A DNA stretch of 20,556 nt, from the IMG/VR virus record IMGVR_UViG_3300037137_000881, positions 1-20,556 of that record. One strand, given 5' to 3'. This document shows positions 3,126 to 17,284 of the stretch, piece by piece (position 1 is the first letter of the stretch; every line of letters starts with the position of its first letter). Under the pieces are notes generated by a model that was not told the origin of the DNA, did not search any database, and saw only the letters and a program-made list of their open reading frames with translations. The position numbers were made by a program, and so were the translations under genes. This DNA comes from a virus.

Positions 3126-3311
3126 TTAGTGTACCAGCCAGTCAGCTAATTTAGGTATGTGCTTGTCACAATGGCAATCAAGGCAGAGCTTAGAGTCAAA
3201 CATGTCCCTCCACAGATCAAGCGTCGTTTCTTGCATATTTGTACGGATTTCCAGTGCTACCGGATCACTGCACTTGATACATTTGTAGGATACTAAATTA
3301 CATACTTTCAT
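3126..3311 (-). CDS. Small zinc-ribbon-like protein (61 aa)
   Basis: The ATG at 3311..3309 overlaps the TGA of the hexapeptide-repeat gene (ATGA), with a GAGGTG site upstream. The protein starts MKVCNLVSYKCIKCSDPV. A CIKC pair at residues 11-14 and a CLDC pair at 43-46, followed by His47, Cys48 and His51, form a two-knuckle zinc ribbon arrangement. The 28 residues between the pairs include a TLDLWRDMF helix. Zinc ribbons in small phage proteins usually bind nucleic acid or a host protein. No family is assigned. Confidence 0.7.
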   Translation of the reverse strand: MKVCNLVSYKCIKCSDPVALEIRTNMQETTLDLWRDMFDSKLCLDCHCDKHIPKLADWLVH

Positions 3312-4144
3312 TTTTTCACCTCAATTGATTTGTAATATTCATACATTTTTTTAATGTATTCGATAGTGAGTAAATATTCGTTTGCAAACTGATTGTCTTT
3401 GTGAACTTCTTTAACTTTAATTTCAAAATTGTCGATTGAATCAAAATAACAACCGCATCTAACCATAATACCGTTTTCTTCTGTTAAGTAAAAAAATGAG
3501 CTTTCATTTCTGCTTCCAATATTTGAAATCATAATCAAGGGTTTTTTATTTAATAAAATGTTCCCTTTACTATAAATATTCCCTTTACTATAAATATTCC
3601 CTTTACTGTAAATGTTCCCTTCACTGTAAATATTCCCTTTGCTGAAAATATTCCCTTTGCTGGAAATATTCCCTTCGCTGTAAATGTTCCCTTCGCTGGA
3701 AATATTCCCTTCGCTGGAAATATTCCCTTTACTGTAAATATTCCCTTCGCTGAAAATGTTCCCTTTACTATAAATATTCCCTTTACTGGAAATATTCCCT
3801 TCGCTGAAAATATTCCATTCGCTGGAAATATTCCCTTTACTAAAAATATTCCCTTTACTATAAATATTCCCTTTACTATAAATATTCCCTTTACTATAAA
3901 TATTCCCTTCGCTGAAAATGTTCCCTTTGCTGGAAATATTCCCTTTGCTGGAAATATTCCCTTCGCTGTAAATGTTCCCTTCGCTGGAAATATATTTATT
4001 AAAACAAATAAATCTATTTACTTTTACCTCAACATTACCATTAAACTCATATCTTCCGGTTCTTTCGTTGTAAAATGATTCATCTTTAAAACATCCGTTT
4101 TCATCAAAATGCTCTTCCGTTAAAACTATTGTATTCATAATCAT
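3308..4144 (-). CDS. Hexapeptide tandem-repeat protein, putative beta-helix (278 aa)
   Basis: The N-terminal 52 residues (starting MIMNTIVLTEEHFDENGCF) are followed by 24 uninterrupted hexapeptides at about 53-196, consensus (Y/S/F)-S-(K/E)-G-N-I. A non-repetitive C-terminal domain follows at 197-278. Only positions 1 and 3 vary, apart from one Gly-to-Trp change in unit 10. An Ile every sixth residue with Gly-Asn turns is what a hexapeptide-type parallel beta-helix needs; 24 units would make eight three-sided turns. Similar early phage proteins exist to my recollection, but I know no function. It overlaps both neighbours by 4 bases (ATGA). Role unknown: scaffold, decoy or host-binding surface are all possible. 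An in-frame ATG two codons later could also start it. Confidence 0.85.
   Translation of the reverse strand: MIMNTIVLTEEHFDENGCFKDESFYNERTGRYEFNGNVEVKVNRFICFNKYISSEGNIYSEGNISSKGNISSKGNIFSEGNIYSKGNIYSKGNIYSKGNIFSKGNISSEWNIFSEGNISSKGNIYSKGNIFSEGNIYSKGNISSEGNISSEGNIYSEGNISSKGNIFSKGNIYSEGNIYSKGNIYSKGNIYSKGNILLNKKPLIMISNIGSRNESSFFYLTEENGIMVRCGCYFDSIDNFEIKVKEVHKDNQFANEYLLTIEYIKKMYEYYKSIEVKK
3557..3988 (-). repeat. 18-bp tandem repeat array (24 copies) inside the hexapeptide gene
   Basis: Twenty-four contiguous 18-bp units encode the hexapeptides. GGG-AAT/AAC-ATT is almost constant, while substitutions cluster in the first codon (TCC, TAT/TAC, TTC) and the third (AAA or GAA). The frame is never broken. 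Units 1-6 and 10-15 share the same charge order (E E K K E K), which suggests block duplication. Such an array is prone to copy-number change by slippage or annealing. Confidence 0.95.
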
Positions 4145-5841: not shown

Positions 5842-6126
5842 TCATTTCCGCATAAGCAATAAACAGTCTTTAAATTCCATTTTATTGTCTTTTAGCACCG
5901 GATTAAGACAAGCCTGAAAATCGTTTGCTGATTTACACCCATCGGCAAGCGAAAGACAAACGCTCTTGTCGGGGTTCTTTTGATTATAGTACATACAGGT
6001 CAAGAATACTTTACAAGATGGTTCATATCCTTCGACTGATTGTTCATTTAGATCGCACCCGCATAATAAAACCATAAAAGCCAGAACACATAATACTATG
6101 ATTAGTTTAAATTCGTTGTTTGACAT
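5842..6126 (-). CDS. Small Cys-rich lipoprotein (94 aa)
   Basis: The protein starts MSNNEFKLIIVLCVLAFMVL, a short charged N-region and a hydrophobic core, then the lipobox LCGC with the modified cysteine at residue 24. The mature part has six more cysteines (about 38, 44, 57, 64, 73, 88), enough for three disulfides. It should be an envelope lipoprotein facing outside or the periplasm. It is the last gene of the late operon, where phages often carry lysis helpers, exclusion factors or lysogenic-conversion genes. A GGGGGAA site precedes the start, which lies inside the end of the NrdD-like gene (20-base overlap). An Rz1-type spanin is less likely, since it is not proline-rich and no partner is seen. 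Confidence 0.75.
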   Translation of the reverse strand: MSNNEFKLIIVLCVLAFMVLLCGCDLNEQSVEGYEPSCKVFLTCMYYNQKNPDKSVCLSLADGCKSANDFQACLNPVLKDNKMEFKDCLLLMRK

Positions 6127-6286
6127 TTAATTCCCCCGGTATTTTTAAATTTAATCTTTCTTTGAACTCTTGCCGTTTCGCATTATTCCATTGAAAAACT
6201 GGACGATAATATCCCGAAATTCTACTATAGATTTCTGCGGGAATAACAAGGGATTTATTTTGAGCTTCTGGATTAACATAATTCAT
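6107..6286 (-). CDS. Stand-alone NrdD-like glycyl-radical domain (59 aa)
   Basis: Class III (anaerobic) ribonucleotide reductase carries its radical on a glycine in a C-terminal RxxGY loop. This small protein keeps only that end: EIYSRISGYYRPV at about 18-30 with Gly25 in the radical position, then QWNNAKRQEFKERL, which matches the WN-G-K-EF-R tail of the NrdD C-terminus. It lacks the ten-stranded barrel, the catalytic cysteines and the CxxC zinc site. The parallel is GrcA/YfiD, a spare glycyl-radical domain that repairs pyruvate formate-lyase. By analogy it could restore an oxygen-damaged host or phage NrdD; blocking it is also possible. Start ATG 6286..6284 has a GGGGGAG site only 2 bases away, unusually close. 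It lies between membrane-protein and lipoprotein genes of the late operon. Confidence 0.72.
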   Translation of the reverse strand: MNYVNPEAQNKSLVIPAEIYSRISGYYRPVFQWNNAKRQEFKERLNLKIPGELNVKQRI

Positions 6287-6294
6287 AACTCCCC

Positions 6295-6480
6295 CTATTT
6301 TTTTAGTTCAACACTTATATCAAAAGGCTTCCAGTATATCCCACCTTTACTTTTGTCGTAGCCTACATTGATAATTAACATTGATATAATTCCCACAGTT
6401 ACAACCAGCAACAAGAATCTAAAGAATCGCTGTGACTTGTTCGCTCCTAATGCTAGGTACATTTTCGCCAGTAATTTCAT
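6295..6480 (-). CDS. Small single-pass membrane protein (61 aa)
   Basis: The protein starts MKLLAKMYLALGANKSQRF. A basic amphipathic N-terminal stretch is followed by one membrane helix at about residues 19-40 (FFRFLLLVVTVGIISMLIINV), then a 20-residue polar tail (YDKSKGGIYWKPFDISVELKK). An AAGGAG site precedes the ATG. It comes directly after the cysteine-peptidase-like gene, so a holin or pinholin-like role in a lysis cassette is possible. Its single helix and short tail do not prove it. No family is recognised. Confidence 0.65.
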   Translation of the reverse strand: MKLLAKMYLALGANKSQRFFRFLLLVVTVGIISMLIINVGYDKSKGGIYWKPFDISVELKK

Positions 6481-6490
6481 ACTTGTCTCC

Positions 6491-7021
6491 TTATTTTTTA
6501 GGTTTTATCTCTAATAACCATTTAAAATGATTTTCGTCAACTCTTTTTGCACCTATCGCTGGAACACCCACACCCCTTGACCCACTATCATATATCAGCA
6601 TTATGTTATGGTCGTCAACTCCACAGATCATAAAATGCATAGAATTTTCAAGTTTCATTTGATATAGAGATTCTTTATCTAGCCTGAACGGATTTATAAC
6701 GTCTTCAAAGTCTTTGACGTATTCAATGTCAAAGTCAACCCCGAAAAGATCTCCCATTATTGCATCTTTGGATATATTTATAAATCCGTCGTCACGGCAA
6801 AAATCATGATCTAGCATAAGTTTGAAAAAGTCTGCATATTCTATGTCTGTGTATCCTTGAACTTTTATACCGGCCCAAAATGATACTAAATTACAGTGGC
6901 TCATAGCGTACTTCATGGCGGTTTTATCATCACAATTTAACACGGCTTTAATGTCATCGAATAACTGTGATTTTTCGTTTTGGTTGTATCTTTTGATTAT
7001 TTGCTTTAATTTATCGTTCAC
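6491..7021 (-). CDS. Putative cysteine-peptidase-like protein (176 aa)
   Basis: The start is a GTG at 7021..7019 after a G-rich site. The protein starts MNDKLKQIIKRYNQNEKS. The C-terminal part, SMHFMICGVDDHNIMLIYDSGSRG (about 127-150), resembles the His-Asp half of papain-like/C39-type folds, and Cys43 in SHCNLVSFWAGI, at the start of a helix, could be the nucleophile. Candidate residues are Cys43, His129 and Asp145. DUF261-like proteins of spirochaetes have a similar look, which is only a resemblance. Its place after the tail tip genes, where endolysins usually sit, suggests a peptidoglycan or peptide hydrolase. It could also be an inactive fold. Confidence 0.55.
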   Translation of the reverse strand: MNDKLKQIIKRYNQNEKSQLFDDIKAVLNCDDKTAMKYAMSHCNLVSFWAGIKVQGYTDIEYADFFKLMLDHDFCRDDGFINISKDAIMGDLFGVDFDIEYVKDFEDVINPFRLDKESLYQMKLENSMHFMICGVDDHNIMLIYDSGSRGVGVPAIGAKRVDENHFKWLLEIKPKK

Positions 7022-7067
7022 AAACCCCCCAATTATTTAGCGTTTTTCTTTCAAATTCGTTACTCAT
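7011..7067 (-). CDS. Possible 18-residue leader peptide
   Basis: AAGGAG lies 6 bases before an ATG (7067..7065) that opens MSNEFERKTLNNWGVCER and ends at TAA 7013..7011. Its end overlaps the GTG start of the next gene, so it may feed ribosomes to that weak start by coupling. Alternatively the site is a remnant. Only the good binding site and overlap support it. Confidence 0.35.
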   Translation of the reverse strand: MSNEFERKTLNNWGVCER

Positions 7068-7077
7068 ATTTTCTCCT

Positions 7078-7989
7078 TTAGTTTCCGAGGTAAGAGGCTG
7101 AAAAAAATACTCTTGCTGCTATCGTTGGAGTTGTTCCTGTTGTATGAGGTCGAATAACGTCACCTTTTTTAAAATACATTGTTACGGTAGTTGTCGCCGG
7201 CAATATTATGCCTGCTTGCGCTGATGTATAATGAGCTGATAATATTGTTGATTGAGTTACCGTTGATATTGATGTTGTCAATTGAGAACTGTTTAATGTT
7301 AATCCACTGTCTATAATGGCAGACGCTTGGCAGCAGTCATCAAAAGTAATTGAATATAATCCACTTCGATTTATAGTAATTTCTAAACCTTTAGCATTAC
7401 CGGAATACCCACTGACATGATTTTCTGAAAACATATTCCCGAAATTTTCAACGACATTTGTAAAACGCATAATTTTATTATCTGTAGAACCGTATCCGGC
7501 ATAAGTATTTAATCGTAATTGACTTGTGATTGATTCATCTGTAATTTCCCAGAATCCCGAATTTGAAGATTGAACTAATGAAACATAATTCCCAACTTTA
7601 GGCAGAATTATTGACGCTAATCCATCGTTAGAAAGTTTATTTGCGTCTGTAGCGTGTGGAGATATCGTTACAACATCGGCGGAAGCGTCATTTTTGACAA
7701 ATGCAATTGTTATTTTACGTCCGATATTATTAGCCATCAGTGGAAGCGTAATTGTCGCTGCCCCGGCGGTCGTATTAACTTCTATCCGGCCATAGCCGTC
7801 TCCGTCAAGAATTGCATATGACGCTTCTTTATATACCGTAGAACCTGCTCCGATGAATGACGCTATGGTGTCACGGATAGTTGACCACATAGTTTTTTTG
7901 CTTGTCCCGGCATTTTCCTGAAGTTCAAAATAGTCATCGGCATTTAATACGGTTTGTGTCGTTGTAATATCTTTAATCGTTACGCTCAT
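7078..7989 (-). CDS. Tail tip / receptor-binding protein with C1q-like end (303 aa)
   Basis: The protein starts MSVTIKDITTTQTVLNADDY, a short linker that probably docks to the tail hub. Residues about 53-150 (YKEASYAILDGDGYGRIEV... then ITLPLMANNIGRKITI) form a beta domain often found in phage fibres, where alternating strands stabilise a trimer. The last 110 residues, with GLYSITFDDCCQAS and the final KKGDVIRPH... VFFSASYL, look like a C1q/TNF jelly-roll head, a common phage receptor-binding fold. The ATG overlaps the end of the hub gene by 4 bases. I infer host-surface recognition. The ligand cannot be told from sequence. Confidence 0.7.
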   Translation of the reverse strand: MSVTIKDITTTQTVLNADDYFELQENAGTSKKTMWSTIRDTIASFIGAGSTVYKEASYAILDGDGYGRIEVNTTAGAATITLPLMANNIGRKITIAFVKNDASADVVTISPHATDANKLSNDGLASIILPKVGNYVSLVQSSNSGFWEITDESITSQLRLNTYAGYGSTDNKIMRFTNVVENFGNMFSENHVSGYSGNAKGLEITINRSGLYSITFDDCCQASAIIDSGLTLNSSQLTTSISTVTQSTILSAHYTSAQAGIILPATTTVTMYFKKGDVIRPHTTGTTPTIAARVFFSASYLGN

Positions 7990-9794
7990 TGTTGCGCCAT
8001 CCTTGTTCTTCCGTCTGATAGTATTCTAAATTCTCCCGTGCTTGTAACTCTGACATCGTACTGAGTCACTACCGGTACATAAGTCTTAATATATTTTAAG
8101 GTTAATTGTATCCTGAAATTGTTAAAATCTTTGTTAATGTCTATAATCTCATAAACACCCTTTATTTCAGTTCCAGATCTTCTACGGATAGGATCGCAGA
8201 TAACAAAGTCCATAATTTCTAAATCGTAAAACTCAAATCCAACTTTAATCTTTACAATGTCTTGAATATACTTTGAAAATGCCATAATTGATTCTGATTT
8301 CGCCTGTGCTGATGCAAGGTCTGAAAGTCCAGTTTCTAATGTCTTAGTCTGGAGCGCCTTGTAATATGCAAATACTTCCGCTTCATAAAGTGTATTCTCA
8401 TAAGTTGAATATGATCCCGTTGATTGATTCTTATTGTACTTGATAATAACAGATGACAAGAATTGATCTTCATTCCCGTCTATCGCTGGTGATCCTTCGA
8501 GTATTTCATCAAATTCAATAGTCTGCGCCGGTGTTCTGTCGCTGTCGTAAATCCTTACAGTCCATAGGCCATCATCATGCTGAAAGAAAAGGCCGTCAAT
8601 GTCAATACATACTTTTTCAAGTGCTTTTTTTACATCGGTTTCTTCTTTGATGTATAAGGCAACATTGCGCCCGGAGCAGTCTGTCACGGCTTGCGCGGTT
8701 TCTACAAGGTCGTAATATTCATCGATGTAATCGGTATCTGCGTATCGCTTAAGAATATCTTTAATTATATCCACTCCGTTGTCAATTGCGTTTGCTGTAA
8801 AGCTCGCAGTTACTGATGATTTGTCACTCCCGGCAATAGCTGAAGTTAATACAAAAGTACCGGCAGCAAGATTTGAACTATAAACAGATACTGCCACATT
8901 ATTAACCTTAACCGTGCCAAGTGCTGAAACTGCATTGTATTCAGTATCACATAAAAGAAAGGTATAGTAAGATGAACTTTGCTCTTCGTTTAGGCATATA
9001 CACGGGGCATTATTTATCTCACCGTATGCAATAGGTTTTGGAGCGTCAACGTTTGAATCTGAAAGATTAGGCCAGTCTGCTTTTTTAAGTTTATTCTTAG
9101 GCATCTTATTTGATAGCACGTTACGCGGATCTTCAAATTTAATCGAAAAGTTATCCCATGACCGTGTATGCTCACCAATTACACCAGCACCCACCGGAAC
9201 AAAATCGGCATATTCGTCACCTACTTCGCCGAATAAAAGTCTTGTCGGCTGTCTATATGACTTTTGATCTCGCCATGAATCAAACTCGCCATCGGTGTTA
9301 ATCAGCTTTACTGTGCCGGTATTGTATTTAAGCAAACCATAAAATAGAGGGTCTTTTGATTTCTTTATGCCTGATATAGATTGTACTATGGGCTTGTAAT
9401 AATTACCTGAAAATACATTTCCGTTGTTGTCGTCTTTGTTCGCGTAGCCAACAGCAATACCGATTGTTATAAATTGATTTAACCACGGTTCATAATTTGT
9501 AAAAGTGATATATATAGTTTTTAGATCAACATCATAATAGTACGATTCATCTTGTGTAATCAGGTCATTTAAACTTGATACGGATAAATATATAACTCCG
9601 TCAATGACTAATGATTTAACATTATAACTGACTGAATTTGTATAACTATAATACCCGGTGTTTCCGTTGTCATCTGTTACGGTTATATCTCCGGGAGTAA
9701 TGCACCATTGCCATATCCCGGCGGAATAATTAAGCATTGTTAAGTTTATTAACGGAGCGTCATATTCCCATAGTATAATATTATCTGTAGACAT
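7986..9794 (-). CDS. Baseplate hub / tail-associated protein (602 aa)
   Basis: Downstream of the tape measure and distal-tail-like genes, this long protein fits the hub that closes the tail tube. It starts MSTDNIILWEYDAPLINLTM. The N-terminal half contains a GLLKYNTGTVKLINTDGEFD segment and a long beta-rich stretch. Its middle has a helix pattern (VDIIKDILKRYADTDY, VKKALEKVCIDIDGLFF) typical of hub proteins that fold like phage T4 gp27 or lambda gpJ parts. The end (VKIKVGFEFYDLEIMDFVICD, then YEIIDINKDFNNFRIQLTL) resembles the last beta domain of such hubs. No lysozyme or peptidase domain is seen. Its start overlaps the stop of the previous gene (TAATG). Confidence 0.68.
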   Translation of the reverse strand: MSTDNIILWEYDAPLINLTMLNYSAGIWQWCITPGDITVTDDNGNTGYYSYTNSVSYNVKSLVIDGVIYLSVSSLNDLITQDESYYYDVDLKTIYITFTNYEPWLNQFITIGIAVGYANKDDNNGNVFSGNYYKPIVQSISGIKKSKDPLFYGLLKYNTGTVKLINTDGEFDSWRDQKSYRQPTRLLFGEVGDEYADFVPVGAGVIGEHTRSWDNFSIKFEDPRNVLSNKMPKNKLKKADWPNLSDSNVDAPKPIAYGEINNAPCICLNEEQSSSYYTFLLCDTEYNAVSALGTVKVNNVAVSVYSSNLAAGTFVLTSAIAGSDKSSVTASFTANAIDNGVDIIKDILKRYADTDYIDEYYDLVETAQAVTDCSGRNVALYIKEETDVKKALEKVCIDIDGLFFQHDDGLWTVRIYDSDRTPAQTIEFDEILEGSPAIDGNEDQFLSSVIIKYNKNQSTGSYSTYENTLYEAEVFAYYKALQTKTLETGLSDLASAQAKSESIMAFSKYIQDIVKIKVGFEFYDLEIMDFVICDPIRRRSGTEIKGVYEIIDINKDFNNFRIQLTLKYIKTYVPVVTQYDVRVTSTGEFRILSDGRTRMAQQ

Positions 9795-10462
9795 TACATA
9801 TATTCCACTGTTATATAAAAATCTATTGCAGTTCCAGTTGTTGATCTATCTATATATATTGTTGTATCATTAAAATATATATTGTTTATATTATATACCG
9901 ATGAAACATTGCTTATTGATGGAGACAATACACCGCTTTTGTATGCGATATAATTTATTGACAATATTCTTTTATTTGTGTTAGCATTTGAAATATCGTG
10001 ATTTATAGTTTTATTGGCATCCCCAGACCCGAATGATGCGATAAATTCTCTTTTAATTATTCTGGAGTTTATTACATTTTTTCCGGTATATACTGCGGAC
10101 GCTTTATTAAGTATATAAATATATCTACAATTAACTGTTCCAGATGTCCCATACCATCCTTGTTTACTATCCGACCATGTGGGGGAGATGTTTGTGAATA
10201 CTGCCGTTATTGTTGCCGGGTCAATGTAAATGTAAACAGTCCCATCTGACGGGCTTCCTGTTATGGCTTCTTCTGAAGTAAATTTATATAGTGCCCCGTT
10301 GACTTCGATTACAGAACCGGCGGCAACTGCGGGCAGAGATGTATTGTCGTAATTGGTAAGTGAAACTTGATGCTTGCCTTTAAAACTTTGGTCTGATGTT
10401 AATTGCAATTCTAAAATATTTGAATCCGATTGATTATAATTATTTATTTTTACTCCGGCCAT
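9794..10462 (-). CDS. Minor tail protein of unknown fold (222 aa)
   Basis: The protein starts MAGVKINNYNQSDSNILELQ. It is beta-rich with many Ser, Thr, Asn and Tyr residues. A segment SDGTVYIYIDPATITAVFT at about 71-90 is typical of phage fibre and baseplate modules that display short beta domains. It lies between the distal-tail-like gene and the hub and is joined by TAATG overlaps on both sides, so it is made with them. Likely a tip accessory or adsorption protein. No exact family can be given. Confidence 0.6.
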   Translation of the reverse strand: MAGVKINNYNQSDSNILELQLTSDQSFKGKHQVSLTNYDNTSLPAVAAGSVIEVNGALYKFTSEEAITGSPSDGTVYIYIDPATITAVFTNISPTWSDSKQGWYGTSGTVNCRYIYILNKASAVYTGKNVINSRIIKREFIASFGSGDANKTINHDISNANTNKRILSINYIAYKSGVLSPSISNVSSVYNINNIYFNDTTIYIDRSTTGTAIDFYITVEYM

Positions 10463-16519: not shown

Positions 16520-16655
16520 CTTTTTCCTCAATTAGTTGAATCGAGTTTAATATTCCCTGTACTGCATTCATGTTCTGTAAACCGCCTGTCTTTAAAGCGA
16601 TATCGCATAGTTGTACTAAAATGTCTTTCCCTTCTTTGTCACACATTATACGCAT
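16494..16655 (-). CDS. Small helical protein after the homing endonuclease (53 aa)
   Basis: The ATG at 16655..16653 lies inside the last codons of the endonuclease gene, with AAAGGA 9 bases upstream. The protein starts MRIMCDKEGKDILVQLCDIA and continues LKTGGLQNMNAVQGILNSI, a strongly helical sequence with an acidic end (EEKDDSDLITD). It overlaps the connector gene by 26 bases in another frame. The sequence is too protein-like for chance. It is probably an original structural-operon gene whose translation start now depends on the endonuclease end. A second in-frame ATG three codons later is possible. Function unknown. Confidence 0.6.
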   Translation of the reverse strand: MRIMCDKEGKDILVQLCDIALKTGGLQNMNAVQGILNSIQLIEEKDDSDLITD

Positions 16656-17284
16656 AATATTTTATCCTTTATTTTTATGTTTGCAAATTCACCAAATAAT
16701 TCTCCAGCTTTAATGCAATATGCATTATATGCTTCATCTGGATTATCAAATGACCCTATATGTAATTTTTTACAATTGAATCCTATTTGTGCATACCATT
16801 TTTTAGCTTTTTTATTCCATGTAATTCCAGTACTTTTTTTATTGTAATTATTCTGCGATCTTGTTGCCATTCTGAGATTATTCTTACAATTATTTAATCT
16901 GTCATTATCTATATGGTCAATTTCCATTGACTTATCTATATCCTTATACAAATATCGAGATAGGGAAATAGTTGAACCTTTTTTATCATTTGCGTAAGCA
17001 TAACCATCGCCATTTATAAACCATTTATAATCTTTGCAAACATCTATATCGTCAATATCTATTTTTGTTTTTCCTATTATTTCATTATTGCGGTATAAAC
17101 ATATTTCAGCATAATTATCATGTATTATAATTTCATTTTTATCTTTTTTTGTTATTTCTCTTGTTTTTCCATGTGAGTACATCTGTAATCTATGTTTATT
17201 ACATAATGTCATTCCAAAACGTTTTGAATTTATTATGTTATAATTTTCATTTGTTTTTCCACATATTTCACAGACTTTCAGCAT
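16646..17284 (-). CDS. HNH homing endonuclease with zinc-finger and AP2 domains (212 aa)
   Basis: This looks like a free-standing homing endonuclease that cuts DNA lacking its gene. An N-terminal zinc finger (C5, C8, C28, H31) leads to a beta-rich region, then the HNH core MEIDHIDNDRLNNCKNNLRM at about 120-139 (His124 catalytic, Asn127 and Asn136 likely). The C-terminal AP2 domain (about 153-203, GITWNKKAKKWYAQIGF ... HIGSFDNPDEAYNAY) recognises the target site. It stands between a helical small gene and a 53-residue ORF, in an otherwise structural operon, and its DNA is visibly more AT-rich than its neighbours. An AAAGGAG site precedes the ATG. All expected key residues are present, so it may be active. 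Confidence 0.92.
   Translation of the reverse strand: MLKVCEICGKTNENYNIINSKRFGMTLCNKHRLQMYSHGKTREITKKDKNEIIIHDNYAEICLYRNNEIIGKTKIDIDDIDVCKDYKWFINGDGYAYANDKKGSTISLSRYLYKDIDKSMEIDHIDNDRLNNCKNNLRMATRSQNNYNKKSTGITWNKKAKKWYAQIGFNCKKLHIGSFDNPDEAYNAYCIKAGELFGEFANIKIKDKILCV

Follow-up and report, generated by a model that had tools for sequence, protein, structure and literature searches.

A stand-alone glycyl-radical domain of anaerobic ribonucleotide reductase encoded by phages, and its possible action in trans on NrdD

The DNA analysed here, referred to as the window, is a viral record of 20,556 bases, which may be a fragment, and the gene of interest lies on its minus strand at positions 6107-6286. 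The gene begins with ATG, comprises 59 codons and is preceded by a Shine-Dalgarno sequence, GGGGGAG (6289-6295, minus strand), which can be read directly from the sequence 2 nt ahead of the start codon. Its product, MNYVNPEAQNKSLVIPAEIYSRISGYYRPVFQWNNAKRQEFKERLNLKIPGELNVKQRI, hereafter called mini-NrdD or simply the mini, carries the motifs SRISGYYRP...QWNNAKRQEFKER in this order. Namely, a radical loop, SRISGYYRP, occupies residues 21-29 (6200-6226, minus strand), with Gly25 (codon at 6212-6214, minus strand) as the candidate radical residue, and is followed by the NrdD C-terminal tail WNNAKRQEFKER at residues 33-44 (6155-6190, minus strand), a motif that is also found in full-length NrdDs. 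Ten positions, Gly25 included, are invariant among 37 aligned minis: S21, R22, G25, Y26 and R28 of the loop, and W33, N34, K37, E40 and R44 of the tail.

Directly downstream, in the same transcription unit, a 94-aa ORF (5842-6126, minus strand) overlaps the mini gene by 20 nt; its lipobox-like LLCGC suggests a putative lipoprotein, and family searches with it gave sub-threshold matches only. Upstream lies a gene for a 61-aa predicted single-pass membrane protein (6295-6480, minus strand). Elsewhere on the minus strand of the window, positions 3308-4144 encode a 278-aa protein built of the short repeat EGNIYSKGNI, which matches FapA/bactofilin-type beta-solenoid families (FapA, 3.8e-13), and positions 16646-17284 encode a putative homing endonuclease of the HNH/AP2 type amid structural genes. 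The sequence-only reading that preceded this analysis considered the place of the mini gene in a late operon odd. Such a site is indeed unusual for genes of nucleotide metabolism, but it is typical of moron genes, and members of the family elsewhere are often found near replication or packaging genes.

The same reading took the protein for a stand-alone glycyl-radical end of NrdD, an assignment that is confirmed by sequence homology. In particular, the Pfam NRDD profile (PF13597) matches it with E=4.6e-7 and 29.3 bits, above the curated cut-off of 26.2, and the match is confined to profile positions 533-560 of 562 (the last ~28), i.e., to the very C-terminus of NrdD. Three NrdD models of NCBIfam match as well (8.5e-8 to 7e-5), with equivalog scores far under their full-length cut-offs. 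At E<=1, Pfam and NCBIfam return solely NrdD families, the pyruvate formate-lyase (PFL) type domain (IPR011140) not being among them. The RxxGY loop characteristic of NrdD is present near the C-terminus, and the protein as a whole is a glycyl-radical domain encoded alone, with homology to the C-terminal part of a larger glycyl-radical enzyme. As had also been claimed, its 59 residues hold neither the barrel with the active-site and finger-loop cysteines nor the zinc site (CxxC...CxxC) ahead of the radical loop, the window mini being devoid of any cysteine, and there is no second NRDD match anywhere else in the 20.6-kb record. In the AF2 model (mean pLDDT 77), two short strands (residues 19-21 and 26-28) flank the loop. 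A search of the PDB gave no match by sequence nor, using Foldseek with this model, by fold, because the chain is too short. PHROGs gave no significant match either, and a phage annotation pipeline based on PHROGs would therefore miss the gene.

Dozens of viral contigs contain related minis. In a protein-pattern scan of IMG/VR that used the window protein as the query, 11 loci were returned, every one of them a stand-alone mini of about 45-100 aa, and in a second scan, with the alignment of these minis as the query, 80 of 461 relatives were kept. The loci gathered comprise 75 viral stretches with a stand-alone mini, counting the window and the ANMV-1 virus, and 19 in which the domain lies inside a long NrdD; among the best 80 matches in cellular genomes, nearly all are full-length and three are stand-alone. 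Some full-length NrdDs from gut bacteria and from phages (L002, i.e., MT835493, and many Clostridia, e.g., L100 and L105) have a redoxin-like domain (TCPNC) fused to them behind the radical loop. One could argue that the conservation of the glycine is an artefact of the search pattern. To avoid this bias, IMG/VR was also scanned with a glycine-agnostic DNA pattern covering the tail only, W-N-x-G-K-x-x-E-F-x-x-R, which found short ORFs at 68 of 80 loci, long NrdDs at 7 and ORFs cut by a contig end at 5. RxxG[YFW] was still present in 60 of the 65 unique short ORFs, the other five being mostly chance or frame-broken matches, and the artefact is rejected; Gly25 is conserved among homologues, as the sequence-only reading would have it.

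The family is under purifying selection, with dN/dS of about 0.02-0.13 in most close pairs (e.g., 0.012/0.53 and 0.031/0.82), and ribosome-binding sites precede many of its copies. It has two main forms, namely a short one, resembling the window mini, and one with a zinc-finger-like CxxC...CxxC upstream (L110, L044, L090, L008); while N-terminal extensions vary, the short unit itself stays the same. The ANMV-1 virus (KP703175) has a mini of the long form that is annotated as 'anaerobic ribonucleoside triphosphate reductase', and its record contains no barrel. A search for other phages having the mini and no full nrdD, which had been suggested at the outset, gave the following result: a complete NrdD occurs in 0 of 50 whole viral records with a mini, and 46 of the 50 have no barrel whatever. 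In one viral record of 178 kb (G009, locus L181), the mini is accompanied by an NrdG-like gene (5.8e-5), with no NrdD barrel detected. The only relative of the window phage found was a 4.6-kb contig that stops before the mini. A search for its host through ERF similarity matched phages of many hosts and was uninformative, and a search for the host of the isolate-derived prophages L010 and L067 gave no match in phage and plasmid records. The mini family is large, occurs alone in many viruses and is apparently undescribed.

The remaining viral records, together with a group of bacteria, yield a new finding, namely a class III ribonucleotide reductase (RNR) that is split in nature, in which the barrel ends just ahead of the glycyl loop and the mini is encoded by a separate gene. 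The WOR-3 phylum contributes 18 genomes with a barrel that lacks the glycyl loop, to which one more bacterial MAG and about five viruses can be added. Most of these barrels are followed by a separate mini gene, and in the two operons checked the gene for the activase NrdG2 follows in turn. In a WOR-3 MAG (L095), a barrel of 706 aa without the loop precedes a mini of 52 aa and an NrdG2 (175.6 bits against a cut-off of 131.15), the barrel and the mini being the only NRDD matches of this MAG; the same order recurs in genome G179 (L220). Within the WOR-3 phylum, 19 of the 147 sampled genomes have a mini, and in 18 of these 19 the barrel ends at profile position 521-540, although in some genomes it lies on a different contig. 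In four of the 50 viral records (G008, G014, G036 and G047), the barrel ends at profile position 525-534, directly before the radical loop; a fifth viral truncated barrel (L017) is cut by the contig end, and in one phage the barrel and the mini are 70 kb apart. No barrel ending before the loop is present in the 20.6-kb window record, itself a fragment.

Could the two halves be joined by read-through? This was ruled out. Namely, only 6 of 19 adjacent barrel-mini pairs are in the same frame, which is the chance level, and the stop codons include both TAA and TAG, so the halves are separate genes. The split barrels retain the catalytic cysteines of the active site and the finger loop (Cys177, Cys382 and Cys383 of L095), and most of them have an altered zinc site, CPY[PDE]H replacing CPxC. 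The model of the L095 barrel has a pLDDT of 82, and its best Foldseek matches are all class III RNRs. In a tree of barrels, most split ones fall into two neighbouring clades, with the phage barrel of G047 among the cellular ones. Those of phages G036 and G008 arose by separate splits, and the tree requires a minimum of three changes. A search with the split barrel of G036 as the query returned nothing but G036 itself. Some split barrels (L179 of G014, at 6979-10188 of that locus, as well as L238 and L239) measure 1000-1470 aa and contain large in-frame inserts between NRDD segments, which are probably inteins.

How might a free radical domain work in a phage? In NrdD, NrdG puts a radical on a glycine, a cysteine of the barrel then receives it, and oxygen cuts the chain at the glycine (PMC12288474). 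The mini spans exactly the piece of NrdD that is expected to be lost on such cleavage, with both the glycine and the tail. We consider it fairly probable, on the strength of the sequence comparisons, that the mini represents the glycyl-radical domain of a class III RNR in detached form and acts in trans on an NrdD body. The docking of the phage mini in trans is suggested by the split systems, in which the radical piece forms a chain of its own beside an activase and a body that is otherwise intact. In this scheme, the SRISGYY loop would dock into the barrel of the NrdD body, an NrdG-type radical-SAM activase would install the radical on Gly25, from where it would move to the finger-loop cysteine of the barrel, providing dNTPs for the DNA of the phage. 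For certain bacteria and large phages, the mini is the regular subunit, encoded separately, of a split NrdD. Where a phage has no barrel found, as in the window phage, the mini would most likely equip or re-equip the NrdD of the host, which would lose its own radical end on oxygen cleavage at the radical glycine and which the mini may serve to repair. In other words, the NrdD body that partners the mini in the window phage is probably the host's. That said, several points speak against the action in trans: the window contig is a fragment, and a barrel could sit in the missing part; the mini is without the N-terminal half on which docking and control depend in YfiD; the late-operon site is not where nucleotide-metabolism genes usually lie; and the model of the mini alone has no fold match.

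A stricter version, in which the mini is a GrcA-type spare part for oxygen damage and takes the place of the C-terminus cut from a full-length NrdD of the host, is in our view possible, though less probable than not. It had already been put forward in the sequence-only reading, and the retention of the radical glycine, the existence of the mini as a separate chain and the placement of some cellular copies are all consistent with it; what that reading overlooked is that the mini can be a constitutive subunit of a split RNR. As for the placements, a Smithellaceae MAG that also encodes a full-length NrdD has a rubrerythrin gene followed, 87 nt downstream, by a mini of the zinc-finger type (L110, 3583-4619). 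What is more, G179 has, on top of its split operon, a second mini (L219, 3006-3179) in a 4.5-kb cluster in the order Rrf2 regulator, Cys/Met PLP enzyme, mini, NifS, NifU, and in G178 a further mini is flanked by two rhodanese-type sulfur-transfer genes. These extra cellular minis may point to a function in oxygen or Fe-S stress, but each placement is a single case: rubrerythrin is absent beside the two relatives of the L110 mini that were checked, within the stretch covered (G281 and G344).

If, on the other hand, the host itself had a split NrdD, whose barrel never carries a radical loop, the phage would simply be bringing its own copy of an obligate small subunit. We regard this as rather unlikely, even though split operons do exist in WOR-3 and in another MAG, and even though the window mini is nearest, among 36 compared minis, to the WOR-3 split subunit (52%) and starts with the Ile/Val-Pro-x-Glu-Ile-Tyr-Ser-Arg typical of split systems. 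Namely, split barrels were detected in just part of one sampled phylum and in one unplaced MAG, whereas the viruses bearing a mini are diverse, and several cells (G051, G281 and G344) have a mini alongside a complete NrdD. Less probable still is a decoy or inhibitor, also raised in the sequence-only reading, which would fill the barrel of host NrdD or sequester NrdG and so deprive the host or a rival phage of dNTPs. The Pfam NRDD match would lead one to expect the same partners as for the homologous domain of NrdD, and small accessory genes of late operons are frequently inhibitors; however, a decoy need not retain the radical glycine, which is invariant in minis, phages need dNTPs too, and a mini that belongs to a split system has to be functional. 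Finally, a degraded, functionless remnant of a full nrdD gene, which the restriction of the match to the C-terminus might suggest, is hardly credible and is contradicted by the purifying selection and the wide spread of the same short unit with its varied N-terminal extensions, by the ribosome-binding sites ahead of many copies and by the lack of any barrel remnant in the window record.

It is instructive to compare a mini acting in trans with known systems. GrcA (YfiD) of E. coli replaces the lost piece of pyruvate formate-lyase (PMC8683613), and phage T4 has such a factor too (Y06I, IPR011140); like the mini, these are small, stand-alone C-terminal glycyl-radical domains. The mini differs in being derived from NrdD and not from PFL, in having 59 aa as compared with ~14 kDa, i.e., less than half, and in having no N-terminal docking part. 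By analogy, it would work like GrcA while belonging outside the GrcA family, being of the NrdD and not the PFL type. With the C-terminal domain of NrdD (PF13597, TIGR02487), the mini shares the loop, the tail and the profile positions 533-560, but it has its own gene and, in the window copy, neither zinc site nor barrel. In the split class II RNR of Pseudomonas aeruginosa, NrdJa/NrdJb (PMC4520616), the C-terminal part, NrdJb, is likewise a separate chain (PMC9669993); this is a cobalamin enzyme, however, and the parallel is an analogy only. Introns, inteins or homing endonucleases have been reported to split nrdD genes of phages (PMC3653736), and as in the split systems the coding sequence of such genes is in several pieces. 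Those cases concern interrupted or broken genes in individual phages, whereas in the mini systems the same boundary recurs and the radical domain is an independent gene, often far from a barrel or without one.

The authors of the YfiD rescue study considered spare parts for other glycyl-radical enzymes possible and expected, if undemonstrated (PMC8683613). In the literature searched, which includes few subscription papers, we found no stand-alone NrdD radical domain, split class III RNR or RNR spare part, nor a demonstration that NrdD is repaired in this way, which weighs against the spare-part reading in particular.

What, then, would a radical domain acting in trans mean? With bacterial split enzymes in existence, there is, in our estimate, about an even chance that the radical domain is an exchangeable module, which viruses of anaerobes widely carry without the rest of NrdD and plug into the host enzyme, thereby taking over or rejuvenating anaerobic dNTP synthesis. 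If true, NrdD would be the first glycyl-radical enzyme besides pyruvate formate-lyase to have a spare-part or subunit system. The mini family, viral and cellular, offers direct spare-part candidates for the DNA-precursor enzyme of anaerobes, and many 'nrdD' genes tallied as viral metabolic genes may encode the mini only, long NrdDs accounting for just 7 of the 80 loci of the glycine-agnostic scan. Moreover, the WOR-3 split operon would provide a natural three-part system, consisting of body, radical subunit and activase, for the installation of a radical and its transfer between chains.
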